Assembly: GCA_016790815.1 (NCBI GenBank)
Contig: JAEUOG010000016.1
Coordinates: forward strand, 1 to 36,321
Reading direction: 5' to 3'
Source: Dechloromonas sp.
GTDB taxonomy: Bacteria; Pseudomonadota; Gammaproteobacteria; Burkholderiales; Rhodocyclaceae
DNA: 36,321 bases
Shown: piece by piece, positions 2,104 to 28,446 of the stretch
How positions within the stretch are numbered: position 1 is the stretch's first letter
Layout of the letters: every line of letters begins with the position of its first letter
Translations under genes and position numbers: made by a program
Notes under the pieces: generated by a model
What the model was told of the DNA's origin: nothing
What the model saw: only the letters and a program-made list of their open reading frames with translations
Database searches by the model: none

Positions 2104-2136
2104 TACGGTCAACCCGAAAAAATGCTCAGAATTGAA
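2104..2136 (+). repeat. 33-bp dispersed uptake-like element, copy 1
   Basis: This copy lies between cobS and the DUF938 gene. It starts TACGGTCAACCCGAAAAAAT and ends in CAGAATTGAA, in the plus orientation. It aligns without gaps to the six other strong copies (2867, 11940, 18438, 21432, 23957, 27790). Confidence 0.7.
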
Positions 2137-2205
2137 AGGCAGCCGGTGGCTGTCCATCGGCCGATTTACCGTTAAGCTTCTGGCATTGCACTAGCGCCAG
2201 AAACC

Positions 2206-2808
2206 ATGGAAAAACCCGACGCCCCCTCCACTGAAAAGAACCGCGAGCCGATTCTCGCAGTGCTTCGCGAGGTCTTTGCAGACCGCCAGCAGGTTCTGGA
2301 GGTCGGCAGTGGCACGGGCCAGCACGCCATCCATTTCTGTGCCCGGTTGTCGCACCTCACCTGGCAGACATCGGACCGCCCGGAGTTCCTGCCCGGCATC
2401 CGGATGTGGTTAGCCGAAGCAGCCCTGCCCAATGCCCTGCCACCGTTTGACTTCGACGTCCTCGGCCCGTGGCCGGGCGGCACCTACGACGCCGTTTATA
2501 CCGCCAACACCCTGCACATCATGCCGTGGGCAGCGGTCGAAGCTCTCTTCGCCGGTCTGCCTGCCGTGCTGGCGCCGGGCGGCATCCTCTTCATCTACGG
2601 CCCCTTCATGATCGACGGTCGCCACGCCAGCGAGAGCAATGCCGCTTTCGATCAGTCTCTGAAGGAAAAGGCACCGCACCAGGGGCTGCGTGACGTGATG
2701 GCGCTAGGCCGACTGGCCCGGCAGTCCGGCCTGCAATTTCTCGAAGACCGGGAAATGCCCTCGAACAACCGCTGTCTGATCTGGCGCATGGGTGCCCCAC
2801 GTGGCTGA
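2206..2808 (+). CDS. DUF938 family SAM-dependent methyltransferase-like protein
   Basis: The 200-residue product has the class I methyltransferase motif I, VLEVGSGTGQHAIHF, near residue 30, and the rest of a Rossmann-type fold, including YDAVYTANTLHIM near residue 100. The DUF938 family is recognised from these motifs together with the N-terminal KNREPIL segment. Its substrate is not known. It lies between cobS and cobC, and the next gene begins inside its 3' end, so it is probably co-transcribed with B12 genes. That raises but does not prove a corrinoid or methylation role. No strong ribosome-binding site precedes the ATG. The 130-bp gap from cobS contains one copy of the 33-bp repeat. Confidence 0.85.
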   Translation: MEKPDAPSTEKNREPILAVLREVFADRQQVLEVGSGTGQHAIHFCARLSHLTWQTSDRPEFLPGIRMWLAEAALPNALPPFDFDVLGPWPGGTYDAVYTANTLHIMPWAAVEALFAGLPAVLAPGGILFIYGPFMIDGRHASESNAAFDQSLKEKAPHQGLRDVMALGRLARQSGLQFLEDREMPSNNRCLIWRMGAPRG

Positions 2809-3355
2809 GGGCTTCCGTCTCCATCTGATCCGCCACCCGAAACCGCAGATCGATGCAGGCATTTGCTACGGTCAACGGGAAATTTTGGCCGAAATTGAAT
2901 TGGCCGACCTGCGGGATTTGCAGTCCAGGCTGCCGGCGGAGCTTCCGGTCTGGACCAGCCCGCTGCGCCGTTGCCACGATCTGGCGCTGGCCTTGCACCC
3001 GGTACCGCAGCTTGATGCCGATCTGGCAGAAATCCATTTTGGCGAGTGGGAGGGGCTAGCTTGGGACGACATCCCGCGCCACGAGCTCGACGCCTGGGCG
3101 GCCGATGTCGTCGGCTATGCGCCGCCCGGTGGCGAATCGCCGCGCCAGCTTCAGGCACGGGCGCGTCAGGCGATTGCCCGCATCAACGTGCCGGAGGCAG
3201 TCGTCGTGACGCACGGTGGCGTTATCCGGGCTTTGCTGGCGCATTGGCTTGGTCTGGCTGACGACGCCTGGCTGACCGTTTCAGCGGACTTTCTGTCGGT
3301 GACGACGGTCGAGCTGGATGCAAACGGTCGGGTGCGCCGCGTCACGAAACGGTAA
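2792..3355 (+). CDS. cobC: Alpha-ribazole phosphatase (histidine phosphatase family)
   Basis: CobC removes the 5'-phosphate of alpha-ribazole phosphate (or adenosylcobalamin 5'-phosphate) late in B12 assembly. The 187-residue product has the catalytic histidine in LIRHPKPQID near residue 13, the CYGQ motif typical of CobC near residue 25, the EIHFGEWEGL acidic segment and the second histidine in VVTHGGVIRALL. The RHP variant in place of RHG is, from memory, seen in this subfamily. Two GTG starts are possible (2792 or 2801); both overlap the upstream gene and neither has a clear ribosome-binding site. Copy 2 of the 33-bp repeat lies inside the gene and encodes part of the segment after CYGQ. 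Confidence 0.88.
   Translation: MPHVAEGFRLHLIRHPKPQIDAGICYGQREILAEIELADLRDLQSRLPAELPVWTSPLRRCHDLALALHPVPQLDADLAEIHFGEWEGLAWDDIPRHELDAWAADVVGYAPPGGESPRQLQARARQAIARINVPEAVVVTHGGVIRALLAHWLGLADDAWLTVSADFLSVTTVELDANGRVRRVTKR
2867..2899 (+). repeat. 33-bp dispersed uptake-like element, copy 2 (inside cobC)
   Basis: This copy begins TACGGTCAACGGGAAATTTT and ends GGCCGAAATTGAA. It is fully within the cobC reading frame, encoding roughly YGQREILAEIE. The right half is close to the palindrome AATTTTGGCCAAAATT. Confidence 0.75.
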
Positions 3356-3385
3356 AATGCGGCTTTTCCTCCACGTCCGCCGCCA

Positions 3386-5179
3386 GTGACCCAAGTCCCC
3401 GAACCAACGATGTCCAGCCGCCAGATCTATCTCCGGCTGCTTAGCTGGGTCAAGCCGTACTGGCGCGTCTTTGTCATCGCCATTCTGGGCATGGTGGCGA
3501 CGGCGGCGACCGAGCCGGTGGCGCCCTGGCTGCTCAAGACATTGATCGACAACGGCTTCAAGGCGGCGAGCGAGCGCGAAATCATACTGCTGCCGCTGGC
3601 CATCGTCGGCATTTTCATCCTGCGCGGCGTTGCGACCTTCACGTCCGGTTTTTCGATGGCATGGATCGCGGCACGGGTGGTTTTTGACCTGCGCCAGGCC
3701 ATGTTCGGCCGCCTGATGACGCTGCCGACCCGTTTTTACGACGACCAGTCGACCGGCGTACTCATTTCCAAGGTGGCTTACGATGTCACCAACGTGACGC
3801 AGGCCGCCACCGGTGTATTGACCACGGTGGTGCGTGATTCGCTGACCATAGTCGGCCTGCTCGGTTACCTGCTCTATCTCGACTGGAAGCTGACGCTGAT
3901 CGCGCTGACCGTTGGCCCGGTCGTTACCGGCCTCATCCGCATCTTCAGCAAGCGCCTGCGGGCTGCCGCGCGCAGCGGCTATTCGGCCATGGGTCTCATC
4001 ACCCACATTCTCGAAGAGGCGGTCGGCGCCCACAAGGTAGTCAAGATCTTCGGCGGCCAGCAATACGAAAAAGGTCGTTTCGACCAGGTGCTTAACACCT
4101 TCCGCCGCGCCACCATGCGCGAGGCCGCTGCTGCCGCTGCCACGGTGCCGCTGACGCAGGTCGCCGTCTCGATCTCGGTGGCCATCATCACCTACATGGC
4201 GCTGCGTCAGTCCAACAGCGATTCCGGAACGACCGTCGGCGAATTCCTTTCATTCATCACGGCGCTGGTCATGCTGTTGGCGCCGGTCAAGCGCCTGACG
4301 GACGTTTCCGCCCCCCTGCAGCGCGGTCTGGCTGCCGCCGAGAGCGTCTTCCAGGTGCTCGACGAAGTGGCCGAGGACGATCGTGGCACGGTGCGCATCG
4401 AGCGCGCCCGTGGCCACCTGCAATTCGAGCAGGCCAATTTCACCTACCCGAACGCGCCGCGACCGGCGCTGATCGACATCGACCTCGACATCCAGCCCGG
4501 CCAGACCGTCGCCCTGGTCGGTCACTCGGGCAGTGGCAAGAGCTCGTTGGCGGCGCTGGTGCCGCGTTTCTACCACCTCACGCAGGGCACGCTGCGCCTC
4601 GACGGCCATCCGCTCGAAGAACTGACGCTGGAAAGCCTGCGCGACAACATCGCCATGGTCAGCCAGGATGTCGTTCTGTTCAACGACACCGTGCGCGCCA
4701 ACATCGCCTACGGCCACGCGCAAAAGGCCACCGACGCGCAGATAGAGGCCGCCGCCAAGGCCGCCAACGCATGGGAATTCATCGGTCAGATGGAAAAGGG
4801 CCTGGATACCGAAGTCGGCGAGAACGGCGTCAAACTCTCCGGTGGGCAGCGCCAGCGCCTCGCGATCGCCCGCGCCTTCCTGAAAAACGCGCCGATCCTC
4901 ATCCTCGACGAAGCCACCTCGGCCCTCGACACCGAATCCGAACGCCTGATCCAGGCCGCCCTCGACACCCTGATCGTCGGCCGCACCACCCTCGTCATCG
5001 CCCACCGACTATCAACCATCGAACGCGCCGACCTGATCGTCGTCCTCGATCAGGGCCGCATCGTCGAACGCGGCCGCCATGCTGAACTGCTGGCGAAGGA
5101 CGGCGTCTATGCCAAGCTGCAGCGCCTGCAGCGTGACTCGGTCACGAACCAGCCGCTGACCGATAGCGCAGGCGTTTGA
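3386..5179 (+). CDS. msbA: Lipid A/LPS core flippase, ABC transporter fused permease–ATPase
   Basis: MsbA flips lipid A–core across the inner membrane, feeding LPS export. The 597-residue product is a half-transporter. An N-terminal membrane domain with about six helices fills roughly residues 20–330. A nucleotide-binding domain follows, with Walker A VGHSGSGKSS (about 378–387), signature LSGGQRQR (about 483–490), Walker B ILILDEATSALD (about 504–515) and the switch histidine in VIAHRLS. Two starts are possible, GTG 3386 or ATG 3410 (589 residues, closer to Escherichia coli MsbA); neither has a strong ribosome-binding site. Its last 38 bases overlap, tail to tail, the minus-strand glycosyltransferase gene. 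The LPS genes alongside fit the assignment. Confidence 0.93.
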   Translation: MTQVPEPTMSSRQIYLRLLSWVKPYWRVFVIAILGMVATAATEPVAPWLLKTLIDNGFKAASEREIILLPLAIVGIFILRGVATFTSGFSMAWIAARVVFDLRQAMFGRLMTLPTRFYDDQSTGVLISKVAYDVTNVTQAATGVLTTVVRDSLTIVGLLGYLLYLDWKLTLIALTVGPVVTGLIRIFSKRLRAAARSGYSAMGLITHILEEAVGAHKVVKIFGGQQYEKGRFDQVLNTFRRATMREAAAAAATVPLTQVAVSISVAIITYMALRQSNSDSGTTVGEFLSFITALVMLLAPVKRLTDVSAPLQRGLAAAESVFQVLDEVAEDDRGTVRIERARGHLQFEQANFTYPNAPRPALIDIDLDIQPGQTVALVGHSGSGKSSLAALVPRFYHLTQGTLRLDGHPLEELTLESLRDNIAMVSQDVVLFNDTVRANIAYGHAQKATDAQIEAAAKAANAWEFIGQMEKGLDTEVGENGVKLSGGQRQRLAIARAFLKNAPILILDEATSALDTESERLIQAALDTLIVGRTTLVIAHRLSTIERADLIVVLDQGRIVERGRHAELLAKDGVYAKLQRLQRDSVTNQPLTDSAGV

Positions 5180-7204: not shown

Positions 7205-7330
7205 GTCGACATCGGGAGAGAAGAGGCACGCAGCCATGGCGGCTGCCAGCACCGGCCCGCATCGGCGAAACCAGCGAGGAAAGTGTATCATCCGCCCAAC
7301 CCTGAGAGCCGCCTGGTAACCCACAAGTTA

Positions 7331-11076: not shown

Positions 11077-11094
11077 TTGTTCGCGCAGCCCGCC

Positions 11095-11967
11095 ATGACG
11101 CCGCAACTGATCTCGGTCATCGTCACGACCTATAACCGGCCGGACGCCTTGCGGGCAGTGCTGGCTTCGCTTGCCGCGCAGACCGATACGGCCTTCGAGG
11201 TGCTGGTGGCCGATGATGGCTCACGCGCTGAAACCGCCGAGGCCGTTGCGGCAGAAGGCGTCCATTTTCCGGTTCCGCTACGCCATCTTTGGCAGGAAGA
11301 CGATGGTTTTCGTGCGGCGGCGGCGCGCAATCTCGCGGTTGCAGCCAGCCGCGGCGATTACCTGGTTTTCATCGACGGCGACTGTATCCTGCGCCCCGAT
11401 TTTGTCGCGGCACACCGCGCCTTGGCTGAAGCTGGCTGGTTTGTCGCTGGGAACCGGGTGCTGCTCTCCGAGGACTTCACGAAAAAGGTGTTGCAGACGC
11501 CGATGGTCGCGCTGCACGGCGACAGCCGTTTGACGTGGCTCGGTCGGCGATTCGCCGGCGCCATCAACCGCTGGCTGCCGCTCTGTCACTTTGCCGGCCA
11601 GGGTTGGCGCAAGCGCCAGCCGCAGCGCTGGCAGGGGGCGCGGACCTGCAATCTGGCGCTGTGGCGCGCCGATTTCGATGCCATCAACGGATTCGACGAA
11701 GCTTTCCAGGGCTGGGGTCACGAGGATGCCGACCTCGCCATCCGCCTGCTGCACGCGGGCGTGCAACGCAAGGATGGCCGCTTTGCCACGGCCGTGCTGC
11801 ACCTCTGGCACCGCGAAAACGACCGCAGCAATCTGGCCGAGAACGAACGCCGGTTGGCCGAGATTCTGGCTGCCGACCGGCGGCGTGCGGCGGTCGGGAT
11901 CGACAGCTACAACGCCGCACGGGTCAGCGCCGCGGAAATTTCGAAATTGGGCAAAATTTCCGGTTGA
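11095..11967 (+). CDS. Glycosyltransferase family 2 with a galactosyltransferase-type C-terminal region
   Basis: This 290-residue protein starts LISVIVTTYNRPDALRAVL, continues with EVLVADDGS near residue 40 and has the metal site FIDGDCI near residue 90. The C-terminal half contains FDAINGFDEAFQGWGHEDADL, the acceptor/base region of the Glyco_transf_7C type. The ATG at 11095 is preferred over an in-frame TTG at 11077. The last nine codons and stop fall in copy 3 of the 33-bp repeat (minus orientation), so the repeat supplies the protein's C-terminus. It is the final gene of the LPS block and ends 23 bases from the convergent polA. Confidence 0.87.
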   Translation: MTPQLISVIVTTYNRPDALRAVLASLAAQTDTAFEVLVADDGSRAETAEAVAAEGVHFPVPLRHLWQEDDGFRAAAARNLAVAASRGDYLVFIDGDCILRPDFVAAHRALAEAGWFVAGNRVLLSEDFTKKVLQTPMVALHGDSRLTWLGRRFAGAINRWLPLCHFAGQGWRKRQPQRWQGARTCNLALWRADFDAINGFDEAFQGWGHEDADLAIRLLHAGVQRKDGRFATAVLHLWHRENDRSNLAENERRLAEILAADRRRAAVGIDSYNAARVSAAEISKLGKISG

Positions 11968-11972
11968 CCGTG
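11940..11972 (-). repeat. 33-bp dispersed uptake-like element, copy 3 (GT2 gene end)
   Basis: Read on the minus strand it begins CACGGTCAACCGGAAATTTT and ends GCCCAATTTCGAA. It spans the 3' end and stop codon of the GT2 gene and part of the short gap before polA. It is among the copies closest to the consensus. Confidence 0.78.
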
Positions 11973-11989
11973 AGATCGTGCTGGGACGG

Positions 11990-14710
11990 CTAGTGCGCCG
12001 CCTCCCAGTTCGGCCCGACACCCACTTCGACGACGAGCGGCACCTTGAGCTCGGCGACCTGGCTCATCAACCGGGGCAGGTGGGTGCGAATTTCCATCAG
12101 TTCGGCGTCCGGCACTTCGAGCAGCAGTTCGTCGTGTACCTGCAGGACCAGCTTTGATTTCAGCCCCGATTTTTCCAGCCAGTCCTGCACGGCGATCATC
12201 GCCAGCTTGATCAGGTCGGCGGCCGTGCCCTGCATGGGCGCGTTGATCGCGGCGCGCTCGGCGGCTTGGCGGCGGTTGCCGTTGCTGGAACGGATTTCGG
12301 GGAACCACAGGCGGCGGCCGAAGGCGGTCTCGACGTAGCCTTTCTGCCGCGCCGTTTCGCGGGCTTCCTCCATGTAGCGGGCGACGCCGGGATAGCGGGC
12401 GAAATAGCGGTCGATGTAGGTCTGCGCCGCGCTGCGCTCCAGCCCGAGCTGGCGGGCCAGGCCGAAGGCGCTCATGCCGTAGATCAGGCCGAAATTGATG
12501 CTCTTGGCGACGCGGCGCTGGTCGGGGCCGACTTCGAGCGGCGTGACGCCGAAGATTTCGCCGGCCGTGGCACGGTGCACGTCCTCGCCGTGCGAGAAAG
12601 CGTGGAGCAGGCCCTCGTCGCCCGAGAGGTGGGCCATGATGCGCAGTTCAATTTGCGAGTAGTCGGCCGAGACGATGCTGGAACCTTCGGGCGCGACGAA
12701 GGCGGTGCGGATCTTCCGGCCTTCCTCGCTGCGCACCGGGATGTTCTGCAGGTTGGGGTCGGTCGAGGCAAGGCGCCCCGTGACAACCGATGCCTGAGAG
12801 AAGTGAGTATGTACTCGCCCGGTCTGAGCATTGACCATGCGCGGCAGTTTGTCGGTGTAGGTGCCCTTGAGCTTAGACAGGCTGCGGTGTTCGAGCAGCA
12901 GCTTGGGCAGCGGGTAGTCGAGGGCGAGTTCGGAGAGGACTTCCTCGTCGGTCGAAGGTCCGCCGGACGGTGTTTTCTTCTTGACCGGCAGGCCGAGTTT
13001 TTCGAAAAGGATGTCGGCCAGCTGCTTCGGCGAGGCGAGGTTGAACGGCTGGCCGGCCAGTTCGTAGGCCTGCGCTTCGAGCGCCATGATCTTCTGGCCC
13101 ATCTCGTGACTTTGCCGGGCCAGCACCTCGGCGTCGATCAGGATGCCGTTGCGTTCGATCTGCCAGATGACCTGGCGGGCCGGCATTTCTATGTCGTGGT
13201 AGATGCGCGACAGGCCGGGTTCGTCGGTGAATTGCGGGTGCAGCACGTTATGGATGCGCAGGGTGACGTCGGAATCTTCGGCGGCGTAGGTGGCGGCGCG
13301 CTCGATATCAACCTGGTCGAAGCCGATCTGCTTGGCGCCCTTGCCGCACAGGTCTTCGTAGGCGATGGTGTCGAGGCCGAGGTGGCGGGTGCATAGCTGG
13401 CCGAGGTCGTGGCCCTTGTCGGACTCGATGACGTAGCTTTGCAGCATGGTGTCGTGCGCGATGCCGGCCAGCGTGATGCCGTGGTTGGCGAAAACGTGCT
13501 GATCGTACTTGGCGTTTTGCAGCACCTTCTTGCGGTCGACGGCTTCAAGCCAGGGTTTCAGCCTGGCCAGCACTTCGTCGCTCGGCAACTGGTCGGCGAC
13601 GCCGGGTGCGGTGTGGGCGAGCGGGATGTAGCAGGCTTCACCCGGTTTGACCGACAGCGAAATGCCGACGATGCGGGCTTCGAAGGAGTCGAGGCTGGTC
13701 GTTTCGGTGTCGAGCGCGGTCAGTTCTGCCGCTTCGATTTTGGCCAGCCAGGCGTCGAATTGTGGCCAGCTCAGGACGGTTTCGTAGGTAACGTCGATTT
13801 TGCCTTGGAGCGTGGGCGCAGCTGCTTCGGAAATCGTGCGGGCAGGGATGTCGGCGGCCGCTTCGGGACCATCGATATCGCCCAGCCAGGTGCGGAACTG
13901 GTAGCGGGTATAGAGCTCGCGCAGGGCATCCGTATCGCGCGGCGTGGTGGTCAGTGTGTTGGGCGCCGGCAGGTTGGACAGGTCGCAGGCGACGGTGACC
14001 AGTTTTTTCCCCAGCGGCAAAAAGCTGAGGTGATCGCGCAGATTCTGGCCGACCACGCCGCCGATTTCATCGGCATGGGCGACGATTTCGTCGAGCGAGC
14101 CGTATTGCGCCAGCCATTTGAGCGCCGTCTTCGGGCCGCATTTGGCGACGCCGGGCACGCCGTCGACGGTGTCACCCACCAGCGCCAGATAATCGACGAT
14201 CTTGCCCGGCGGCACGCCAAACTTGGCTTCGACGCCGGCCTCGTCGAGCAACTCGTTGCTCATCGTGTTGTACCAGCGCACGAGCGGATTGACCAGTTGG
14301 GTCAGATCCTTGTCGCCGGTGGAAATCAGCGTATTTATGCCGTCGACCGCAGCATTCTTCGCCAGCGTGCCGATCACGTCGTCGGCCTCGACGCCGTCGA
14401 CCATGAGCAGCGGCCAGCCGGCGGCCTTGATGGCGGCGTGCAGAGGTTCTATCTGGACAACCATTTCTGGCGGCATCGGCGGCCGGTGGGCCTTGTATTC
14501 GGGGTACCAGTCGTCGCGGAAAGTCTTGCCCTTGGCATCGAAGACGACCGCCTTGTAGTCCGCCTTGTAGTCGGTCTCCAGACGACGTAGCATGTTCAGA
14601 ACGCCGTAGATGGCGCCCGTCGGCTCGCCCGCCTTGTTGCGCAGGTCGGGCAGGGCGTGGAAAGCGCGATAGAGATAGGACGAACCGTCCACCAACAATA
14701 AGAGAGGCAT
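11990..14710 (-). CDS. polA: DNA polymerase I
   Basis: PolA fills gaps in repair and replaces RNA primers on the lagging strand. The 906-residue protein has all three domains. The 5' nuclease is at about 1–290 (LLLVDGSSYLYRAFHALP, VEADDVIGTLA). The 3'–5' proofreading domain starts with ALDTETTSLDSF at about 333, with its acidic residues intact. The polymerase has motif A VSADYSQIELR at about 682, motif B RRVAKSINFGLIYG at about 733 and motif C QVHDELLLEV at about 861. The start ATG at 14710 gives the expected N-terminus, but no clear ribosome-binding site precedes it. The divergent LOG gene begins only 3 bases away. Confidence 0.97.
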   Translation of the reverse strand: MPLLLLVDGSSYLYRAFHALPDLRNKAGEPTGAIYGVLNMLRRLETDYKADYKAVVFDAKGKTFRDDWYPEYKAHRPPMPPEMVVQIEPLHAAIKAAGWPLLMVDGVEADDVIGTLAKNAAVDGINTLISTGDKDLTQLVNPLVRWYNTMSNELLDEAGVEAKFGVPPGKIVDYLALVGDTVDGVPGVAKCGPKTALKWLAQYGSLDEIVAHADEIGGVVGQNLRDHLSFLPLGKKLVTVACDLSNLPAPNTLTTTPRDTDALRELYTRYQFRTWLGDIDGPEAAADIPARTISEAAAPTLQGKIDVTYETVLSWPQFDAWLAKIEAAELTALDTETTSLDSFEARIVGISLSVKPGEACYIPLAHTAPGVADQLPSDEVLARLKPWLEAVDRKKVLQNAKYDQHVFANHGITLAGIAHDTMLQSYVIESDKGHDLGQLCTRHLGLDTIAYEDLCGKGAKQIGFDQVDIERAATYAAEDSDVTLRIHNVLHPQFTDEPGLSRIYHDIEMPARQVIWQIERNGILIDAEVLARQSHEMGQKIMALEAQAYELAGQPFNLASPKQLADILFEKLGLPVKKKTPSGGPSTDEEVLSELALDYPLPKLLLEHRSLSKLKGTYTDKLPRMVNAQTGRVHTHFSQASVVTGRLASTDPNLQNIPVRSEEGRKIRTAFVAPEGSSIVSADYSQIELRIMAHLSGDEGLLHAFSHGEDVHRATAGEIFGVTPLEVGPDQRRVAKSINFGLIYGMSAFGLARQLGLERSAAQTYIDRYFARYPGVARYMEEARETARQKGYVETAFGRRLWFPEIRSSNGNRRQAAERAAINAPMQGTAADLIKLAMIAVQDWLEKSGLKSKLVLQVHDELLLEVPDAELMEIRTHLPRLMSQVAELKVPLVVEVGVGPNWEAAH

Positions 14711-17490: not shown

Positions 17491-18264
17491 ATGCGCGCCC
17501 AGACACTTCCCCCCGTCGCCGGCTGGGGCTGGATTCTTACCGGCTTCGCCATATTTCGTCGCAATCCCATAACCCTCGGCATGCTGGTTTTGACCTATTG
17601 GTTTACGGTCGTCTTTCTCAATGTCCTGCCGTATATCGGGGCGCTGGTCGCTTCGCTGGTCATACCCGGCTTGTCGGTCGGCCTCATGCAAGCCGCCAGG
17701 CAGGTTGAGCGCGGGCTGCCGATCGGCGTGCAGACTCTCTTTGGCAGCATGAAGGAAAACGGCCGGACCCTGGTCGCCCTGGGCGCCCTCTACCTCTGTT
17801 GCACGCTAGGCGTTCTTGGTTTGTCCACGTTATTCGACGGCGGCGACATGTTCCGCTTCATGATGGCCAGCAACCGGGCTGAACGGGCGGCACTCGAAGA
17901 AGCTGATTTCATCACGCCGGCCCTATTCGTCATGGCCCTGATGACGCCGGTCATGATGGCCTACTGGTTCGCCCCGGTTCTGGCTGCATGGCATCGGCTG
18001 ACCCTTGGCCGGGCGCTGTTCTTCAGCTTCGTGGCATGCTGGATGAACTGGCGGGCATTCCTGGTCTATGGAGTCGGATTGATGTTGCTGGCTGGCGTCG
18101 TCCCGGGCGTCATCCTCGGACTGTTGTTGCTGGTCTTTCCTGGCGCGGCCAATTTCATCACTGCCATCGTCACCATGCCCATGGTGCTGATCATCGCACC
18201 GACCGTTTTCGCCAGCTTCTACGCCTGCTACCGCGACATCTTCGGCATTTCCGAAATTGTCTGA
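17491..18264 (+). CDS. BPSS1780-family integral membrane protein, second copy
   Basis: The 257-residue protein is a diverged paralogue of the previous one. It shares the opening tryptophan-rich helix, IPGLSVGLMQAARQVERG (compare GAGMIKLCKRMHDG), YWFAPVLAAWHRLTLGRALFFSF, a conserved N-W-R-AF-L-Y-G stretch and the ending ASFYACYRDIFG. It has about six membrane segments and no enzyme motif. Function is unknown; tandem membrane partners of this kind may form a heteromer. Its 3' end overlaps the TTG start of nadD by 8 bases. Confidence 0.82.
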   Translation: MRAQTLPPVAGWGWILTGFAIFRRNPITLGMLVLTYWFTVVFLNVLPYIGALVASLVIPGLSVGLMQAARQVERGLPIGVQTLFGSMKENGRTLVALGALYLCCTLGVLGLSTLFDGGDMFRFMMASNRAERAALEEADFITPALFVMALMTPVMMAYWFAPVLAAWHRLTLGRALFFSFVACWMNWRAFLVYGVGLMLLAGVVPGVILGLLLLVFPGAANFITAIVTMPMVLIIAPTVFASFYACYRDIFGISEIV

Positions 18265-18910
18265 GCCGCTTGGCCTCTTCGGGGGAACTTTCGACCCCGT
18301 GCATTATGGCCATCTCCGGCTGGCCGAGGAGGCGATTGCCCATCTCGGCCTTGGTGGCGTGCGCTGGATTCCCGCTGGTCAGCCGCCGCATCGCGGCACG
18401 CCGCAGGTTTCTGCGCAGCAGCGTCTGGAGATGGTGCTGCGGTCAACCGAAAATAATGCCCGATTTTCAATTGATCCCAGCGAGGTCGAAGCCGCTGTGC
18501 CGAGCTACACAGTGCATACGCTGGAACGCCTGCGTCGTGAACTCGGTGCCGAACAGCCGCTCGTCCTGCTTGTCGGTGCCGATGCCTTCGCCGGTCTCGC
18601 TACCTGGCATCGCTGGCGCGACATTTTTGCCCTGGCGCATGTTGCCGTCTCGCATCGCCCCGGTTTTCCGGTCGAAACGAACAGCCTGCCGCATGAGCTT
18701 GCCACTGAATTCAATGACCGCCGCCTGACTGATGTCGGCGGGCTGAAACTAGGTCCGGCCGGGGGGATTGTCACTTTTGCCATGACCCAGCTCGCCATCT
18801 CGGCGACGCAGATCCGCAAGTTGCTGGCCAACGGCCTGTCGGCGCGCTATTTGCTGCCGGATGCCGTTCTCGACTATATTCACCTTCACCAACTCTATAA
18901 AAGTACCTGA
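18257..18910 (+). CDS. nadD: Nicotinate-nucleotide adenylyltransferase
   Basis: NadD adenylates nicotinate mononucleotide in NAD synthesis. The 217-residue product has the nucleotidyltransferase motif GLFGGTFDPVHYGHLRLAE at residues 6–24, PAGQPPHRG near 40, LVGADAFAGLATWHRW near 97 and the C-terminal ISATQIRKLLANG. The TTG at 18257 is the only start that keeps the full N-terminal motif; it overlaps the previous stop by 8 bases. Copy 4 of the 33-bp repeat lies within the gene and encodes LRSTENNARFS, aligning with normal NadD sequence without an insertion. The stop shares a base with the rsfS ATG (TGATG). Confidence 0.94.
   Translation: MSEPLGLFGGTFDPVHYGHLRLAEEAIAHLGLGGVRWIPAGQPPHRGTPQVSAQQRLEMVLRSTENNARFSIDPSEVEAAVPSYTVHTLERLRRELGAEQPLVLLVGADAFAGLATWHRWRDIFALAHVAVSHRPGFPVETNSLPHELATEFNDRRLTDVGGLKLGPAGGIVTFAMTQLAISATQIRKLLANGLSARYLLPDAVLDYIHLHQLYKST
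18438..18470 (+). repeat. 33-bp dispersed uptake-like element, copy 4 (inside nadD)
   Basis: It begins TGCGGTCAACCGAAAATAAT and ends GCCCGATTTTCAA, in the plus orientation. It lies in the nadD reading frame in a stretch where the protein aligns to family members without a gap, so the element was matched by substitution, not inserted. Confidence 0.68.
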
Positions 18911-19742: not shown

Positions 19743-20347
19743 TGCGTCTCTACCTCGCCTCGCGCAGTCCGCGCCGCCGTGAGTTGCTGCACCAGATTGG
19801 CATCGACTTCGATACCGTGGTTTTTCGCGACGGCCTGCGTGCCGATAGCGAGACCGACGAGACACCGCAGCCCGGAGAGCATCCAGTGGCTTACGTCGAG
19901 CGCGTGGCGCGTGCCAAGGCGATGCACGGCCTGAGAATCGTCGAGGAGCGCCGCCTGCCCTCGCGCCCGGTGCTGGCTGCTGACACGACGCTGGAATTCG
20001 AGGGCGAAATCATTGGCAAGCCGGTGGACATGGCCGACGCCGCAGCAATCCTGCGCCGCCTATCCGGGCGAACGCATCGCGTGCTGACCGGCGTCGCCAT
20101 CGACCATCAGCAGCGAACAGAGTACCTGCTGTCGACCAGCGAAGTTCGCTTCCGTCATATCGACGACGAGGAAATCCGTCACTACGTCATCAGCGGCGAG
20201 CCGATGGACAAGGCCGGCGCCTATGGTATTCAGGGCAAGGCCGGGATGTTCGTCGAGCACCTTTCCGGCAGCTATAGCGGGGTCATGGGCTTGCCCGTCT
20301 GCGAAACGGGCGAGCTGCTCAAGAAACTCGGCTTCCGTCCGCTTTAA
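19742..20347 (+). CDS. maf: Maf-family nucleotide pyrophosphatase (dTTP/UTP type)
   Basis: Maf proteins hydrolyse non-canonical or excess nucleoside triphosphates to monophosphates. The 201-residue protein has the N-terminal LASRSPRRRELLHQIGI, the metal-site VLAADTTLEFEGEIIGKP, SGRTHRVLTGVA and the C-terminal MDKAGAYGIQGKAGMFVEHLSGSYSGVMGLP. The pattern suggests the YhdE-like dTTP/UTP branch. The start is ATG 19742 (an adjacent ATG at 19739 is in frame), with GGGAGGG just upstream. In many betaproteobacteria rng directly follows maf; here rng lies about 8 kb away. The 3' end overlaps the opposing GT-B gene by 4 bases. Confidence 0.93.
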   Translation: MRLYLASRSPRRRELLHQIGIDFDTVVFRDGLRADSETDETPQPGEHPVAYVERVARAKAMHGLRIVEERRLPSRPVLAADTTLEFEGEIIGKPVDMADAAAILRRLSGRTHRVLTGVAIDHQQRTEYLLSTSEVRFRHIDDEEIRHYVISGEPMDKAGAYGIQGKAGMFVEHLSGSYSGVMGLPVCETGELLKKLGFRPL

Positions 20348-21399
20348 GCGGCGCTGGCGTAGTTCATGATGGTGTGCGCCACCTGCGCAATGCCATCGGT
20401 TTCCGGTAGCGGCGACGGCGGTTGCGCCAGAACCTTTTCAAGGGCTGTCGTGAGCTGCCCGCATTCCAGCTCTGCTACGCCGATCTCGAAACAGCGGCCG
20501 TTAACCGTCAGCCAATCGATCAGACAATCCTGCTCCGGCCAGTTTTCGCGCCGCTGGTATATGACCGGGGTGCCGTTGCAGGCGGCTTCGGTGAAGGTGC
20601 CGTAGCCAGGCTTGGTGATGACGGCATCGACCGAGCAGAGCAGGTTGGTAAAGCAGAGGCCGAAGGATTCGCTGGCGATGACGTCGGGGTGTCGGCAGTG
20701 CCAGGCGGCCGGCACGAGCCAGCGGACGCCGGGCAGGCGCGGCCAGTCTTCCACTGGCAGGCGGTGGGCGATGCCGCCCATGGCGATGAGGATGGCTTTG
20801 TCGCCATTCAGGCCGAGATCGTGGCGGCTACCAAGGGCGGCGATCGGGCCGACGGTCTGCATATTGGTCAGTGCAGCCATCGCCATGCCGGGCGTGACGC
20901 GCAGGAAGGCTTGCGCCGAGTGGTAGGCGGCGAGCATCTCGGCGTGGATGGGCTGGGCCCAGAGCTGGTTACTGAAATAATGGTCGAACAGGTCGGCCCA
21001 GTTCAGCGAGCACAAGCTGAGGGCCGGAATGCCTGCGGCTGCAGCGCCGGCCAGCGGCAGGTAGCTGACGTTGGTGAGGACGAGGTCGGGTTTCAGGTCG
21101 GCCAGAAAGCGGGCTTCATCGGCAACGCGGGCTGGCCAGTCGGCGTGCGCCTGACGGTAGGCGGTGGCGCTGGCTGCGAGGTCGACGCGAGTGGCGTCGA
21201 TCATCACGTAACCGAAATCGGTTGCGCTGCTGATCAGCGTGTAGGGCGTCTGGATTCGTTGCTGCAGTTTGGCGGTGGGCAGGGCGCTACGGACCGTCAG
21301 CCGGAAATTCGGCGCTTTTTTGGCGACGGCATTGAGCACCGGCGCCGTGATGGCGAGGTGGCCGAAGCCGTGGCTGGAAATGTCGACAAACAGGTGCAT
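20344..21399 (-). CDS. GT-B-fold glycosyltransferase-like protein (arabinokinase N-domain type)
   Basis: The 351-residue protein opens DISSHGFGHLAITAPVLNAV, a nucleotide-sugar transferase N-terminus like the MurG-like domain seen at the N-terminus of plant arabinokinases. The C-terminal half has a glycine-rich loop (AILIAMGGIAHRLP) and VITKPGYGTFTEAACNGTPVIYQRRENWPEQ, the donor-site region of MurG/UGT-type enzymes. It is soluble with no membrane segment. Donor and acceptor are unknown. The gene stands alone on its strand between maf and the enoyl-CoA hydratase; a degenerate copy of the 33-bp repeat lies near its 5' end. Confidence 0.72.
   Translation of the reverse strand: MHLFVDISSHGFGHLAITAPVLNAVAKKAPNFRLTVRSALPTAKLQQRIQTPYTLISSATDFGYVMIDATRVDLAASATAYRQAHADWPARVADEARFLADLKPDLVLTNVSYLPLAGAAAAGIPALSLCSLNWADLFDHYFSNQLWAQPIHAEMLAAYHSAQAFLRVTPGMAMAALTNMQTVGPIAALGSRHDLGLNGDKAILIAMGGIAHRLPVEDWPRLPGVRWLVPAAWHCRHPDVIASESFGLCFTNLLCSVDAVITKPGYGTFTEAACNGTPVIYQRRENWPEQDCLIDWLTVNGRCFEIGVAELECGQLTTALEKVLAQPPSPLPETDGIAQVAHTIMNYASAA
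21294..21326 (+). repeat. Degenerate copy of the 33-bp element (inside the GT-B gene)
   Basis: GACCGTCAGCCGGAAATTCG followed by GCG and TTTTTT resembles the consensus with two core mismatches. It is 138 bp from copy 5 and in the same orientation. On the minus strand it encodes PNFRLTVR of the GT-B protein. It could be chance or an eroded copy. Confidence 0.35.
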
Positions 21400-21431
21400 G
21401 CGGGCTGCTTTGCGCGGCTACCGAGCGTTGC

Positions 21432-21464
21432 CACGGTCAACCGGAATTTTTGGCCAAAATTGAA
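21432..21464 (+). repeat. 33-bp dispersed uptake-like element, copy 5
   Basis: It begins CACGGTCAACCGGAATTTTT and ends GGCCAAAATTGAA. It is intergenic, 32 bases before the GT-B start codon (on the other strand) and directly beside a strong hairpin at 21469–21495. Its right half contains the palindrome AATTTTTGGCCAAAATT with one extra T. Confidence 0.78.
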
Positions 21465-21468
21465 ATGC

Positions 21469-21495: not shown

Positions 21496-21513
21496 CTCGC
21501 TGAGAAGGCGAAC

Positions 21514-22287
21514 TCAGCGATTCTTGAAAGCCGGTTTGCGCTTCTCGATAAAGGCAGCCATGCCTTCCTTCTGGTCCTCCAGCGCGAAAGCGGAATGGAA
21601 GACGCGGCGCTCGAAGAGCAGGCCTTCGTTGAGCGAGGACTCGAAGGCGCGATTGACCGACTCCTTGATCATCATGACCACCGGCAGAGAGAAACCGGCG
21701 ATGGTGGCAGCGGCTTTGAGCGTTTCCTCGAGCAGCTGATCAGCCGGAATGACGCGGGCGACGAGGCCGGATTTCTCGGCTTCGGCCGCATCCATCAGGC
21801 GTCCGGTCAGGCAGAGGTCCATCGCCTTGGCCTTGCCGACGGCGCGCGGCAGTCTTTGCGTGCCACCGGCCCCGGGCAGGGTGCCGAGCTTGATTTCCGG
21901 CTGGCCGAACTTGGCGGTGTCGGCGGCGTAGATCATGTCGCACATCATCGCCATTTCACAGCCGCCACCCAGCGCAAAGCCCGCCACCGCCGCGATGACC
22001 GGCTTGCGCGTTGTCTTGATGCGCTCCCAGTTGCGGGTGATGAAGTCCGTTTTGTAGGCGTGCATGTAGTCAAAATCCTTCATGAAGCCGATGTCGGCTC
22101 CCGCGGCGAAGGCTTTTTCGTTGCCGGTGATGACGATGCAGCCGATGTTCTCGTCGGCTTCGAAGATGTCGATGGCGGCGCCGATGCCGTCGACGACGTC
22201 GTTGTTCAGGGCGTTCATCGCCTCCGGGCGGTTGATGTGGATGAGGCCGACTTTGCCGATAGTTTCAGTGAGGACTACTTGGGTCAT
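21514..22287 (-). CDS. Enoyl-CoA hydratase (crotonase family)
   Basis: This enzyme hydrates short-chain 2-enoyl-CoA in fatty-acid or polyhydroxybutyrate-related metabolism. The 257-residue protein matches family length. It has the oxyanion-hole region [12 protein letters not shown] and [18 protein letters not shown], the second catalytic glutamate in FGQPEIKLG and the [14 protein letters not shown] motif. Both catalytic glutamates of mitochondrial-type crotonase appear conserved. The start ATG at 22287 has GGAG six bases upstream; a longer open frame to 22344 is not needed. Nearby acetoacetyl-CoA synthetase suggests a shared C4-CoA theme, but the two are on opposite strands. Confidence 0.93.
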
Positions 22288-22307
22288 GTTTGTCTCCGGA
22301 GTGTCAT

Positions 22308-23069
22308 TCAATAGGTCAGTGAAATCCATGCCATACCGAGCCATTCGTGCAGCGCGTAATAGGATATTTGCAGGGCTTTGGGTTGGGGCAGGAAATCGGT
22401 CAGCATGCCTTTGAAAGGGGCGTGGCTGAAAAAGGCGGTGGGGGCGGGGATGACTTCCAGCCCGGCGCGCTCGAACAGCAGTTTGGCGCGCGGCATGTGG
22501 AAGGCGTGCGTGACAAGGACGATACTTCGGACGCCGGCGGCTTTCAGGATGGAGGCCGACAGCGCGGCGTTGCCGGCGGTGTCCATCGATCCAGCTTCCT
22601 GCCAGCGAACCTCGACGCCAAATTCGTTGCGCAGGATGCCGGTCATGATGTCGGCTTCGGAAGCCTCGGTATCAGGCAGTTGTCCGCCCGTGACCAGCAC
22701 GGGCATATCGTAACGCCGGGCCAGCGTGGCACCATAGCGCGTGCGGATCAGGGTGCGTTCGTTGGCCGTATCGTTGCCGTACTCCATGGCGTCGGTTGCG
22801 ACGCCGCTACCGAGGATGACGATGGCGTCTGCCTTGGGCTTTGGTGCATCGGGCGTGATCACGGCGGACTTGTTTTCCAGCGTCGCTATCAGCCATTCGG
22901 AAATGGATGGCGTGCACTGGGCCAGCGCGAGGAAGGTGGCCACCACTGCCAGCCCGAAAGCCCAGCGCCGGCGCCGGAAAAAGCCGGCCAGGCAGAGCAG
23001 CGCCAGAGCGTTGCCGGGAGGCAGCAGCAGCGCGCTGATGAGCGTTTTCAGGGTCCAGGCGAGGGTCAT
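22308..23069 (-). CDS. ElyC/YdcF-like DUF218 membrane protein
   Basis: The 253-residue protein has two N-terminal membrane segments (about residues 5–28 and 36–55), then a DUF218 domain: [17 protein letters not shown] near 85, [21 protein letters not shown] near 125 and [28 protein letters not shown] near 185–212. The overall plan is that of Escherichia coli ElyC, which affects peptidoglycan assembly through the lipid carrier; SanA and YdcF share the domain. Which branch it belongs to is not certain. The ATG at 23069 is preferred over a TTG at 23129; neither has a clear ribosome-binding site. It is separated by 20 bases from the enoyl-CoA hydratase gene and is probably upstream in the same transcript. 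Confidence 0.84.
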
Positions 23070-23222
23070 GCAGGGTGAGGTGGATGGGTTCAGGGCGTCG
23101 AGTTTGTCCGTGTCATGGGCCGGCGTCAATCAGGGCAGTGAAGTGTCCGGTCGATGACAGTTGCCTGCCTGGAATTCCTGCTATCTTTGCGGATCAAAAC
23201 AGAACAAGACTCAGGAGACAAG

Positions 23223-25181
<1,959 letters not shown>

Positions 25182-25188
25182 AATGAAA

Positions 25189-25212: not shown

Positions 25213-25231
25213 GAATGAGCTACGTAGTTGC

Positions 25232-25864: not shown

Positions 25865-25899
25865 TGGCTTGCGTTGAGTTTTGCAAAAGCACTACAGTT

Positions 25900-25915
25900 T
25901 GCAAGACTTGGGCCA
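25900..25915 (-). promoter_or_regulatory. Sigma-54 (-24/-12) promoter of the PEP-CTERM gene
   Basis: On the minus strand TGGCCCAAGTCTTGCA matches the sigma-54 consensus (TGGCAC-N5-TTGCA), with the invariant GG and GC separated by exactly 10 bases. Transcription would start about 12 bases downstream, near 25888, giving a leader of about 24 bases before the ATG at 25864. From memory of the literature, PEP-CTERM genes in floc-forming betaproteobacteria are driven by RpoN with the PrsK/PrsR regulators, which fits this site. Confidence 0.75.
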
Positions 25916-26000
25916 ATGGGCGCATGTCATTGAATTGCAATATTTTTATGCCGAATGCGTCAGTGCCGCACCGTGATCCTGTAAAGAATCCCGACGTATT

Positions 26001-27107
26001 TCAGGTTTTGCGCAGGGCGGCGCGAAAGGCGAGCAGGCGCGTGGTGGTGCGGGGAATGAGGCCGAATACCCGATTCAGGCCAGTTGTGATCCGCTGGCTG
26101 GCGGCAGGGCTTTCGATCCAGCGGTAGAAGATTGTTGCTGCAGCGATGCTGGCAGCCCATGCCAGAACCAGGCCGATCATTGCCGATGCGGTCGAGTTCA
26201 GACCAAGGCGGGCATAGAGCCCGTTGGCGAGCAGCAAAACGGGGAAATGCACGAGGAAGATCGAATACGAGATCTGGCCGAGGAAGGCCAGCGGTCGGGC
26301 GTTCGGCCACTGTTCAAGCACGCCGGTGCGGCGCCCGAAGCCGAGCAACAGCGCGACAGCCAGAGCCAGCGCGATACGCAGACGGAAATCGATGATCAGT
26401 GCGGCGATGGTGATGGTGGCGATAACGCCGAGCCAGGCGGCCAGTTGTCGGCGGTCAGAGGCCCACCAGGCGGCGGCGCCGAGACCGTAAGAGCCGAAGA
26501 AGTAGATGGCCCAGTTGTCCCAGCTGGCATCGAGGTTGAACCAGAACAGCGAGGCAGCGGTGACGCCAAGCACCAGCGCCGGGGCGACGATGGCGCGGCG
26601 GCCGGCCCAAAGCAGGATGGCCATCAGCGCAAAAAGCTGGAAATCGATGGCGATGTACCAGACGCCGGCCGACAGTGCGTCAAAGCCGAGCAGACCCTGC
26701 AGCAGGAAGGCGTGGGCCAGCCATTGCGCCAGCGTGGCGCGGGCGGGAATGGCCTCGTCGTCCATCCAGTGGTCGGCGATGGCGGCGGTGATGATGGCCA
26801 GGCCGATGGCGGCCAGGTAGGGTACGGCGAGGCGCAGGTAGCGTTTCCAGATCAGCGGCAGCGGCGATATGGTCAGCGCCTGTCCCTCTGCCGAGAGGCC
26901 GCGGGCGGCGAGGAAGCCGGCGATGACGAGGAAGACCTGGACGGCCATGCGGCCGTATTCAAAAAACCAGCCGAACAGGCCGGGCAGGGCTGCGCGCGCT
27001 GCTTCGGCAAGTGGGCCGTAGGAGGAGTAGTGGTTGAGCAGGACGAGCAAGGCCGCGATCGCCTTGAGGACGTCGATCAGGGGCATGCGGTTGGGGATCG
27101 TGCTCAT
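26001..27107 (-). CDS. Acyltransferase 3 family membrane protein
   Basis: The 368-residue protein is highly hydrophobic with about ten membrane segments. It carries the Acyl_transf_3 landmarks: LIDVLKAIAALLVLLNHYSSYG at residues 9–30, with the likely catalytic histidine, VQVFLVIAGFLAARG near 60, and SYSIFLVHFPVLLLANGL in the C-terminal third. Family members acetylate or otherwise acylate sugars of surface glycans or peptidoglycan. The ATG at 27107 gives the normal N-terminus; the frame is open to 27143. The substrate is not predictable. It lies between PEP-CTERM and trhP on the same strand, but the spacing does not require an operon. Its stop overlaps a short repeated sequence (25984–26002). 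Confidence 0.86.
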   Translation of the reverse strand: MSTIPNRMPLIDVLKAIAALLVLLNHYSSYGPLAEAARAALPGLFGWFFEYGRMAVQVFLVIAGFLAARGLSAEGQALTISPLPLIWKRYLRLAVPYLAAIGLAIITAAIADHWMDDEAIPARATLAQWLAHAFLLQGLLGFDALSAGVWYIAIDFQLFALMAILLWAGRRAIVAPALVLGVTAASLFWFNLDASWDNWAIYFFGSYGLGAAAWWASDRRQLAAWLGVIATITIAALIIDFRLRIALALAVALLLGFGRRTGVLEQWPNARPLAFLGQISYSIFLVHFPVLLLANGLYARLGLNSTASAMIGLVLAWAASIAAATIFYRWIESPAASQRITTGLNRVFGLIPRTTTRLLAFRAALRKT

Positions 27108-27138
27108 TATTTTGAGTCTACACGGTTTGCTGCAGTGC

Positions 27139-27152
27139 ACCAAACGTTTGGT
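27139..27152. promoter_or_regulatory. 14-bp perfect palindrome, possible operator
   Basis: ACCAAACGTTTGGT reads the same on both strands and sits in the 67-bp gap between trhP and the acyltransferase gene, 32 bases upstream of the latter's start. It could be a dimeric repressor site for the acyltransferase, or a small hairpin. No T run follows in the gene direction, so it is not an obvious terminator. Confidence 0.35.
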
Positions 27153-27174
27153 CGGCTTGTTTTGTAAGGATCAG

Positions 27175-28446
27175 TTAAACAAAACGCGCGACGAAGCAAT
27201 TGGTGTACAAGGCGGGCAAATCAATCCATACGCGATGGCCGCTACCGGGGGCAACGGTCACCGGTTCGCCCTTGGCGTTTTCCATGCGGCTCAGCGTGAT
27301 GACATGGTTGCCGGAGGGGTGTACGCATTCGAGTCGGTCGCCAACGGAAAAGCGGTTCTTGACCTCGATTTCCATGAGGCCGCGGACGGTGTCGAAGGCG
27401 ACGGCATCGCCGACGTAGAGGCTTCGATCCGATTCCGAGCTGCCGCGCAGGTAGTTCTGATACTCGGCGTCGTGATGGCGCTGCAGGAAGCCGTCGGTGT
27501 AGCCACGGTTGGCCAGGCCTTCGAGCTCGCGGAGCAGGGCCGGGTCGAGCGGCTTGCCGGCGACGGCGTCGTCGATGGCCTGGCGGTAGGCCTGCGAGGT
27601 GCGGGCGACGTAGTACGGGCTCTTGGTTCGGCCTTCGATCTTCAGCGAATCGACGCCGATTTCGACCAGGCGATGGACGTGCTCGATGGCGCGCAAGTCC
27701 TTGGAATTCAGGATGTAGGTGCCGTGCTCGTCTTCCTCTATGGGCATCAGTTCGCCCGGGCGCATCTTTTCTTCGAGCAGGATTTCCTGTTCATTTTTGA
27801 GTAATTTTGCCGGTTGACCGTCGGAAGTCGTCACCTTGTAGTCCCAGCGGCAGGAGTTGGTGCAGGTGCCCTGGTTCGGGTCGCGGTGATTGAAGTAGCC
27901 GGAGAGCAGGCAGCGGCCGGAGTAGGCGATGCACAGCGCGCCGTGTACGAACACTTCGAGCTCTATGTCCGGGCATTTCTGGCGAATTTCAGCCACTTCG
28001 TCGAGCGACAACTCGCGCGACAGAATGATGCGGTCGACGCCCATTTTTTGCCAAAAACGAACCGAGGCCCAGTTGACCGTGTTGGCCTGTACCGAGAGGT
28101 GGATGACCTGTTCCGGCCAGGTTTCGCGCACCATGTCGATGAGGCCGGGGTCGGACATGATCAGCGCGTCGGGCTTGAGCGCAACGACCGGGGCCATGTC
28201 GGACAGATAGGTGGGTAGCTTGGCGTTGTGCGGAATGATGTTGCTGACGACAAAAAACTGCTTGCCGCGGGCGTGCGCCTCGTTGATGCCTTCGCCCAAC
28301 TTCTCGATGCTGCCGAACTCGTTGTTGCGCACGCGCAGGCTGTAGCGCGGCTGGCCGGCGTAGATGGCGTCGGCGCCGAAATCGAAGGCGGTGCGCATCA
28401 TGTCGAGCGAGCCGGCGGGGGCGAGGAGTTCAGGAGCTTTGGGCAT
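27175..28446 (-). CDS. trhP: U32-family tRNA hydroxylation protein (TrhP/YegQ type)
   Basis: TrhP takes part in prephenate-dependent formation of 5-hydroxyuridine at tRNA position 34. The 423-residue product begins APELLAPAGSLDMMRTAFDFGADAIYAG and has the U32 signature EVFVHGALCIAYSGRCLLSGY. The four conserved cysteines C172, C179, C195 and C199, probably iron–sulphur ligands, are present. RPGELMPIEEDEHGTYILNSKD follows, as in Escherichia coli YegQ. Copy 7 of the 33-bp repeat falls in the variable link between the cysteine region and that motif, where it encodes about DGQPAKLLKNEQE. It diverges from rng with a 35-bp gap. Confidence 0.9.
   Translation of the reverse strand: MPKAPELLAPAGSLDMMRTAFDFGADAIYAGQPRYSLRVRNNEFGSIEKLGEGINEAHARGKQFFVVSNIIPHNAKLPTYLSDMAPVVALKPDALIMSDPGLIDMVRETWPEQVIHLSVQANTVNWASVRFWQKMGVDRIILSRELSLDEVAEIRQKCPDIELEVFVHGALCIAYSGRCLLSGYFNHRDPNQGTCTNSCRWDYKVTTSDGQPAKLLKNEQEILLEEKMRPGELMPIEEDEHGTYILNSKDLRAIEHVHRLVEIGVDSLKIEGRTKSPYYVARTSQAYRQAIDDAVAGKPLDPALLRELEGLANRGYTDGFLQRHHDAEYQNYLRGSSESDRSLYVGDAVAFDTVRGLMEIEVKNRFSVGDRLECVHPSGNHVITLSRMENAKGEPVTVAPGSGHRVWIDLPALYTNCFVARFV
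27790..27822 (-). repeat. 33-bp dispersed uptake-like element, copy 7 (inside trhP)
   Basis: Read on the minus strand it begins GACGGTCAACCGGCAAAATT and ends ACTCAAAAATGAA. It lies in the trhP frame, in a region of the protein that varies between species. Confidence 0.68.

Follow-up and report, generated by a model that had tools for sequence, protein, structure and literature searches.

What is the role of a short sequence that recurs on both strands, within genes and between them, along a single bacterial chromosome? This question is raised by a 36,321-nucleotide stretch of Dechloromonas sp. DNA (contig JAEUOG010000016.1; the whole of this stretch is referred to below as the window), in which a sequence-only reading had picked out seven copies of a dispersed 33-bp element and likened their build to that of the Haemophilus uptake signal. 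Our analysis supports this interpretation. The element very probably serves the Azonexus/Dechloromonas clade as a DNA uptake signal sequence, a putative function that we assign from sequence data because the copies are abundant, share a fixed composite anatomy, arose by substitution, show no polarity, are evenly spaced in three of four well-sampled genomes, avoid imported DNA, form clade-limited dialects and occur as inverted pairs in some species. Those genomic hallmarks of an uptake signal that could be tested were present in most samples, and inverted pairs in only a few species. None of the three outcomes named beforehand as fatal to the idea (a genome-wide count no higher than expected for composition, copies found only as inserted blocks, or a genome devoid of natural competence genes) was observed.

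Anatomy, abundance and origin of the element

All seven copies lie in the window at the positions and on the strands first given for them. To describe the element we used a position matrix seeded with an exact 10-mer and iterated on the window together with 20 more stretches of its genome (412,033 bases in all). This genome, G000, spans 2.54 Mb and is 76% complete. Matches above 14 bits were counted as hits, and Markov-simulated and reversed sequence served as controls. The 33-bp description is sound, although the element as conserved actually covers 38 bp, from −4 to +33 around a near-palindromic RCGGTCRAC core, and conservation beyond these limits is slight (at most 0.32 bit). Conservation is strong at T(−4), C(−2), Y(−1), RCGGTCRAC (0 to 8) and A/T at 13–17 and 24–27, with a weak A at +30 to +32. 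The matrix consensus accordingly reads T-N-C-Y-RCGGTCRAC-SSS-R, followed by an A/T tract at +13 to +17, mostly G/C at +19 to +22, a second A/T tract at +24 to +27 and weaker positions after that. The core begins with GCGG in about half of the copies and with ACGG in most of the remaining ones, and the matrix scores show that the fit to consensus varies widely from copy to copy. The core and the two tracts are centred at about 4.5, 15 and 25.5, giving steps of about 10.5 bp.

Using this matrix, 151 matches were found in the 412,033 bases of G000 and none in either control. A larger sample of the genome (428,033 bases) gave 157 raw matches, reduced to 151 when those less than 30 bp apart were merged; the merged close matches that were examined proved to be a single near-palindromic core read on both strands. 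In the whole of G000, ACGGTCAACC occurs 155 times (78 + 77 on the two strands) versus 15 times (7 + 8) for its reversal, while the looser pattern YRCGGTCRACNNNNAWW occurs 496 times (238 + 258) versus none (0 + 0) in its control. The genome-wide count that had been proposed as a check therefore lies far above the controls by each of these measures.

Orthologues of the 11 sites that the matrix locates in the window were taken from 80 named loci. Three sites had no orthologue spanning the element, one had a single orthologue and seven had at least two. Alignments were ungapped across the element in 15 of 20 cases at the site in the gene that we take to be nadD, in 67 of 80 at site 28026, in 21 of 27 at 23402 and in 16 of 27 at 23954. 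The sites with few orthologues gave 8 of 8 (14317), 2 of 2 (21429) and 0 of 1 (2864). At 27788 just 13 of 61 alignments were ungapped because that stretch of the protein is indel-rich across the group. Since the alignments are mostly ungapped, species with and without the element differ mainly by substitutions. This bears out the proposal that the nadD copy arose by substitution and not by insertion, and the check for conservation across indels returned no pattern of inserted blocks.

These alignments also contradict the idea that the copies are a small mobile element, or a repeat of the repetitive extragenic palindrome (REP) or miniature inverted-repeat transposable element (MITE) kind, that spreads by insertion. 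Such a repeat would be dispersed, constant in length and similar from copy to copy, as the element is, and would suit the inverted pairs of some species. However, besides the mostly ungapped orthologues at four sites (28026, nadD, 23402 and 23954), the scant conservation outside −4 to +33, the uneven fit to consensus and the presence of copies in frame inside housekeeping genes all argue against it, and we find this explanation barely credible.

At nadD the substitutions can be followed into the protein. Seven element-bearing species read RST..N..F, while six others read RATAGNPRF, TATRDNPRF, RAVDGNPRF and similar, a residue pattern which suggests that the tag overrides amino-acid preference. 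Furthermore, distant congeners retain the tag at the equivalent place though the flanks are only about 73% identical (L060).

Placement along the chromosome and in imported DNA

The strand symmetry that had been suggested as a test is evident in the merged sites, which divide 75/76 between the strands in G000 and 34/34 in G042. In G244, scanned with the G000 matrix because a matrix re-estimated on that genome had settled on the palindromic core and read it from either strand, the division is 34/37, and an apparent plus-only set of core-pattern matches there is very likely an artefact. Orientation in G042 is unrelated to GC skew: 32 of its 68 sites lie on the G-rich strand. The density is about 1 per 2.8–3.6 kb in G000, G042 and G425 (1 per 3.2 kb in G042). 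Spacing is more even than random placement in these three of the four well-sampled genomes, with a coefficient of variation (CV) of 0.67 versus 0.96 ± 0.08 in G000, 0.62 versus 0.92 ± 0.09 in G042 and 0.65 versus 0.89 ± 0.10 in G425.

Hundreds of dispersed copies, even spacing and phased A/T tracts able to bend DNA could also describe the binding site of an abundant intracellular DNA-organizing or segregation protein, whether nucleoid-associated or of a kind like MatS, the FtsK orienting polar sequences (KOPS) or Chi, kept by selection for chromosome handling. Chi and KOPS motifs are polar on the chromosome and REP/MITE repeats spread by insertion. All of these resemble the element in having many dispersed copies, but neither the polarity nor the insertion expected of them was observed here. 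The strand counts show no strand or replichore polarity, unlike KOPS or Chi, and a polar motif of that type is rejected by the 32 of 68 sites on the G-rich strand. In addition, the 28 of 76 congeners with at most 30 matches must segregate their chromosomes too, islands are avoided and dialects exist. We therefore regard an intracellular binding site as unlikely.

With respect to genes, 112 of the 157 raw G000 matches are fully intragenic versus 137 expected, and 37 are intergenic versus 13 expected, an excess of about 2.8-fold. These values depend on rough gene calls (one plus-strand gene in the window, near 21429, was taken as spurious), so that the coding fractions are approximate. Intragenic copies in G000 prefer two reading frames, one per orientation.

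In some species the cores form pairs. Among the 143 cores of G244, pairs at gaps of 22–24 bp comprise 6 convergent, 1 divergent and 2 tandem cases, and L057 and L058 have one convergent pair each with a gap of 23. At a gap of 22–24, tract 1 of either copy doubles as tract 2 of its partner. When the six convergent pairs of G244 were folded as hairpins, five reached −20 kcal/mol or lower and one just −7.3. Convergent pairs with shared A/T tracts may form hairpins that could act as transcription terminators. The intergenic excess and the strong folding of most convergent pairs would fit an element whose primary role is that of a transcription terminator or RNA element, but most G000 matches are fully intragenic and on either strand, and only 2 convergent pairs occur among the 196 cores of that genome. 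We give a terminator or RNA role very little credence as an account of the element at large.

An uptake signal should be scarce in recently imported DNA. No match above 14 bits lies in the integrase-led island that closes the window, which encodes a phage (tyrosine) integrase (30107–31342; PF00589 with Arm-DNA-binding PF13356) and a GmrSD-type restriction protein (32828–34693; GmrSD_N), with further uncharacterized genes alongside. The claim that no copy occurs in the island after 30 kb is correct, though its 6 kb are by themselves too short to mean much. In G002, two pieces of comEC lie 33.7 kb apart (G002:C33 109264–143311; L165 and L166), and the insertion between them opens with a large serine recombinase. 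It contains no element, against some 13 in the roughly 42 kb that flank it; about 10 sites would be expected at the flank density (Poisson P of none about 3e-5). Element density also rises with GC over 10-kb bins (rho 0.40, p 0.01 in G000; rho 0.78, p 2e-5 in G042), although the element itself is A/T-rich, and all three empty bins of G042 fall below the mean GC of the sample. This is the pattern expected if low-GC imports lack the element. Element-free stretches could help to map imported DNA in the genus.

A 20-kb stretch of G042 (L173, G042:C1:1700001–1720000) has 52.9% GC and zero elements, and is likely a genomic island. Several species of the genus have comEC in pieces separated by 5 to 41 kb of a single contig, as if interrupted; besides G002, this was seen in G043:C1 (2218699–2251157), G004:C9 (209006–249642), G017:C8, G056:C1 and G035:C153. 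An integrative element that targets comEC would block the natural transformation of its host.

Spread, competence genes and kinship to known uptake signals

The load of the element differs greatly within the genus. The core pattern YRCGGTSRACNNNNAWW has at least 100 matches in 41 of 76 genus members (maximum 809, with control totals of at most 10) and at most 30 in 28 of them; genomes with many or few matches are called rich or poor below. For example, G042 has 806 matches versus 3 in the control and G477 has 12 versus 5. Sampling of the family covered 395 genomes, of which 22 are members of this genus and the other 373 carry at most 15 matches each. Forty genomes drawn from 40 further families of the order contain the 10-mer 0 to 23 times each (control 0 to 51). 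At the level of the class, with 369 genomes sampled, a longer pattern occurs 334 times in G000 (control 0) and at most once in each of the other 368, 27 of which have one. Named loci around the U32-peptidase-like gene of the window place its host in the Azonexus/Dechloromonas clade. To look for a substitute tag in element-poor species, 9-mers were surveyed de novo in samples of 19–71 kb; none was prominent, by a method that recovers the tag only weakly in a rich genome sampled to a similar extent.

Within the clade the element exists in dialects. G244 uses TTTYACGGTCGACCGTGAAA with the same two A/T tracts, L073 carries GCGGTGAACC copies and G033, at 64–68% GC, uses TGCGGTCRAC. Cultured members with the element at this locus include Dechloromonas sp. 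Dech2017 (L057) and, with weaker matches, Dechloromonas denitrificans ATCC BAA-841 (L055) and Azonexus hydrophilus ZS02 (L078). On a tree of the U32 protein (37 rows, 3 of them unlabelled, with presence scored in 11–36 kb of sequence), presence of the element is clustered, with 0 or 1 of 500 shuffles as low. Six changes of presence are needed, two of which are forced by well-supported branches. We consider a single origin in the genus followed by repeated loss to be the likeliest history. One metagenome-assembled genome (L052, CTSoil_123), 93% identical to the window in U32 and nested among element-bearing rows, has no copy in its 11.5 kb, possibly by recent loss or by chance in so short a stretch. 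Since the tag load varies by degrees over dozens of species, with sisters that have almost no copies, it should be possible to trace gain, drift and loss in rich, dialect and poor species.

This patchiness, from background to 809 matches in one genus, raises the possibility that the element is the relic of an ancestral uptake signal, decaying neutrally in lineages that are no longer competent. The six label changes on the best U32 tree, the broken comEC of several species and the lack of a ComEA over cut-off in G042 point in the same direction. However, rich genomes hold near-consensus copies and genome-specific dialects, and therefore uptake bias probably acted recently there. Neutral decay explains the poor species but not the rich ones, and as a general account it appears very improbable.

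If the element is indeed an active uptake signal, its hosts should encode a competence machinery. Of 60 genus genomes, 59 gave a match to comEC; the gene was judged intact in 44, interrupted or broken on one contig in 8 and unjudgeable in 8, and it is intact in G000. All 14 genomes searched have dprA and 13 of 14 have pilQ, which fell below the cut-off only in the incomplete G000. Thus comEC, dprA, pilQ and pilins are encoded in the genus, and the absence of competence genes envisaged as a refutation was not encountered. A load of at least 50 matches was found in 27 of the 44 genomes with intact comEC and in 2 of the 8 with broken comEC, the 8 of 60 unclear genomes being excluded. As a receptor candidate, the ComP-family pilin (PF16732) was rejected: 56 of 60 genus genomes have it, at high and low loads alike, and the protein of G000 resembles PilE, its C-terminal domain matching PilE (4noa) best. 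Recognition specificity could instead reside in substitutions within a shared minor pilin, much as has been argued for ComP and PpdA/ComN (PMC12616744).

Several observations weigh against uptake as the function of the element. Of 17 genomes, 15 have a ComEA (TIGR00426) over the cut-off; the exceptions are the incomplete G000 and G042, which is complete (one contig of 3.46 Mb) and element-rich. In G042 this may reflect either a divergent periplasmic DNA-binding protein or a recent loss of competence. The element-rich G002 has an interrupted comEC, and comEC, dprA and pilQ occur in element-poor species too. The association of comEC disruption with element load is suggestive only, reaching significance in neither the Fisher (p 0.12) nor the Mann-Whitney test (p 0.09). 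Each of the 16 multi-member pilin groups assembled from 4 rich and 3 poor genomes has at least one poor member, so that none is exclusive to the rich ones. This census covers 106 pilin-like frames, 20 of them singletons outside the groups, from the regions around matches in 7 of the 10 genomes searched. Spacing in G244 does not depart significantly from random (CV 0.86 versus 0.95 ± 0.10), and the samples of G033, G051 and G002, with only 8–9 gaps each, are too small to judge. Convergent pairs are few in G000 (the 2 noted above), G042 (1) and G425 (0). Conservation of the element relative to comparison sequence in close relatives is mixed, at 0.930 versus 0.943 in L051, 0.933 versus 0.885 in L053 and 0.988 versus 0.890 in L054 (4–6 sites each). 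Finally, to judge from titles and the starts of abstracts, the open-access papers that pair Dechloromonas with natural transformation or competence mention the genus once each and are not about its competence.

For a direct comparison we aligned the element on CGGT with that of G740, a genome of the class sample that carries a Haemophilus-type signal (212 exact 9-mers in 359 kb). In G740 the A/T tracts occupy +7 to +11 and +19 to +23, their centres 12 bp apart, and the same distance has been reported for the Hin-type uptake signal sequence (USS) of Pasteurellaceae (PMC1626085). In the Dechloromonas element the core spans −4 to +8 and the tracts occupy +13 to +17 and +24 to +27, 10.5 bp apart. 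Core pairs in G740 repeat the shared-tract geometry of G244 at gaps of 19–20 (5 pairs), and 5 others have a gap of 8; all 10 are convergent, with 0 divergent and 0 tandem. The Haemophilus-type architecture attributed to the element is thus matched in its two A/T tracts and interlocking inverted pairs, but the core is longer and the first tract starts 6 bp more distally.

The similarity extends to the Pasteurellaceae USS generally. Like the Hin (AAGTGCGGT) and Apl (ACAAGCGGT) types, the element has a CGGT core followed on the 3′ side by two A/T tracts separated by roughly one helical turn. It also shares with them an origin by substitution, clade-specific variants and convergent pairs whose members use each other's tracts, tract 1 of one being tract 2 of its partner (PMC1626085, PMC12616744). 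The inner core of the USS is given as GCGG (PMC12616744). Unlike the USS, however, the core of the Dechloromonas element reaches +8, its first tract is displaced outward by the 6 bp noted above, and it possesses two G/C-rich spacers, a weak third A run and GC-rich betaproteobacterial hosts. It is also sparser, at its 1 per 2.8–3.6 kb versus about 1 per kb for the USS (PMC1626085), and inverted pairs are rare in most samples. The Pasteurellaceae core itself can be rejected, as AAGTGCGGTNNNNWWW occurs 2 times in G000 versus 4 in the control and the core here is RCGGTCRAC; the Apl core, which was not counted, is set apart by its sequence. It looks as if the element works like a Pasteurellaceae USS yet is no member of that family, given that core, spacing and host differ.

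The DNA uptake sequences (DUS) of Neisseriaceae, of the GCCGTCTGAA type and with ComP as receptor, are likewise found in Betaproteobacteria, dispersed, divided into dialects and absent from recently acquired genes (PMC2397512, PMC3630211, PMC12616744). In contrast to the composite, 38-bp element described here, the DUS is a continuous 10–13-mer without A/T tracts (PMC1626085, PMC12616744). There is no evident sequence resemblance between the two, which are set apart by anatomy, the DUS 10-mer itself being uncounted.

As of October 2025, self-specific uptake signals were stated for only Pasteurellaceae and Neisseriaceae (PMC12616744). In the open-access literature, going by titles and the starts of abstracts among the matches listed, we found no uptake sequence reported for Rhodocyclales or Dechloromonas, in keeping with the remark in the sequence-only reading that it knew of none described for the order. 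It is probable, though less so than the uptake function itself, that the element represents a third uptake-sequence system and the first outside these two families, of independent origin and convergent on the Pasteurellaceae design, in which a (G/A)CGGT core is combined with two A/T tracts that share a face of the helix and with convergent pairs that interlock. If this is true, convergence on a core with phased A/T tracts would point to a physical need, such as bending or melting at the outer-membrane pore, and not to descent, and self-specific uptake would be more widespread than assumed. The debate over whether such tags reflect ‘safe sex’ or molecular drive rests on two families, to which a third independent case, in environmental bacteria, would add a new natural experiment.

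We propose that double-stranded DNA outside the cell is bound at its RCGGTCRAC core by a DNA receptor that the type IV pilus exposes at the surface. The two A/T tracts, one turn apart on the same face, would ease bending or melting for passage through the PilQ pore, after which one strand would enter via ComEC and undergo recombination assisted by DprA and RecA. Preferential uptake of tagged DNA would allow well-matching alleles to spread by recombination, so that the tag would accumulate by point mutation to about 1 copy per 3 kb of native chromosome and be missing from recent acquisitions. Placing the tag on donor DNA may ease the transformation of these environmentally important bacteria.

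Copies in the window

The matrix locates 11 sites in the window, four of which (310−, 14317−, 23402− and 28026+) are additional to the earlier list (Table 1). The statement that the seven listed copies lie in five genes is slightly overstated. Four are intragenic (2864, 18435, 23954 and 27788) and one overlaps the end of a gene (11938), while 2101 and 21429 are intergenic by our reading of the open reading frames (ORFs). Gene names in the table are our own assignments, presumed from sequence and, for polA, from the N-terminal sequence; nadD had been named in the same way before. Of the additional sites, 23402 scores 19–24 bits at the equivalent place in L051, L053, L054, L058 and L101.

Table 1. 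Element copies located by the 38-bp matrix, and the island, in the window.
Feature	Position	Strand	Score (bits)	Context
Additional copy	310..347	-	27.2	Antisense within called gene 197-1324
Copy (earlier 2104)	2101..2138	+	42.6	Intergenic, genes 1321-2076 / 2206-2808
Copy (earlier 2867)	2864..2901	+	46.4	Within histidine phosphatase gene 2792-3355 (PF00300)
Copy (earlier 11940)	11938..11975	-	42.1	Overlaps 3′ end of gene 11077-11967, adjoins end of presumed polA
Additional copy	14317..14354	-	33.8	Within presumed polA 11990-14710
Copy (earlier 18438)	18435..18472	+	41.2	Within presumed nadD 18257-18910
Copy (earlier 21432)	21429..21466	+	47.3	Between minus-strand ORFs 20344-21399 and 21514-22344
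Additional copy	23402..23439	-	24.9	Antisense within presumed acyl-CoA synthetase-like gene 23154-25181
Copy (earlier 23957)	23954..23991	+	42.4	Within gene 23154-25181
Copy (earlier 27790)	27788..27825	-	35.6	Within presumed U32-peptidase-like gene 27175-28446
Additional copy	28026..28063	+	30.6	Antisense within gene 27175-28446
Integrase-led island	30107..36321			No match >14 bits

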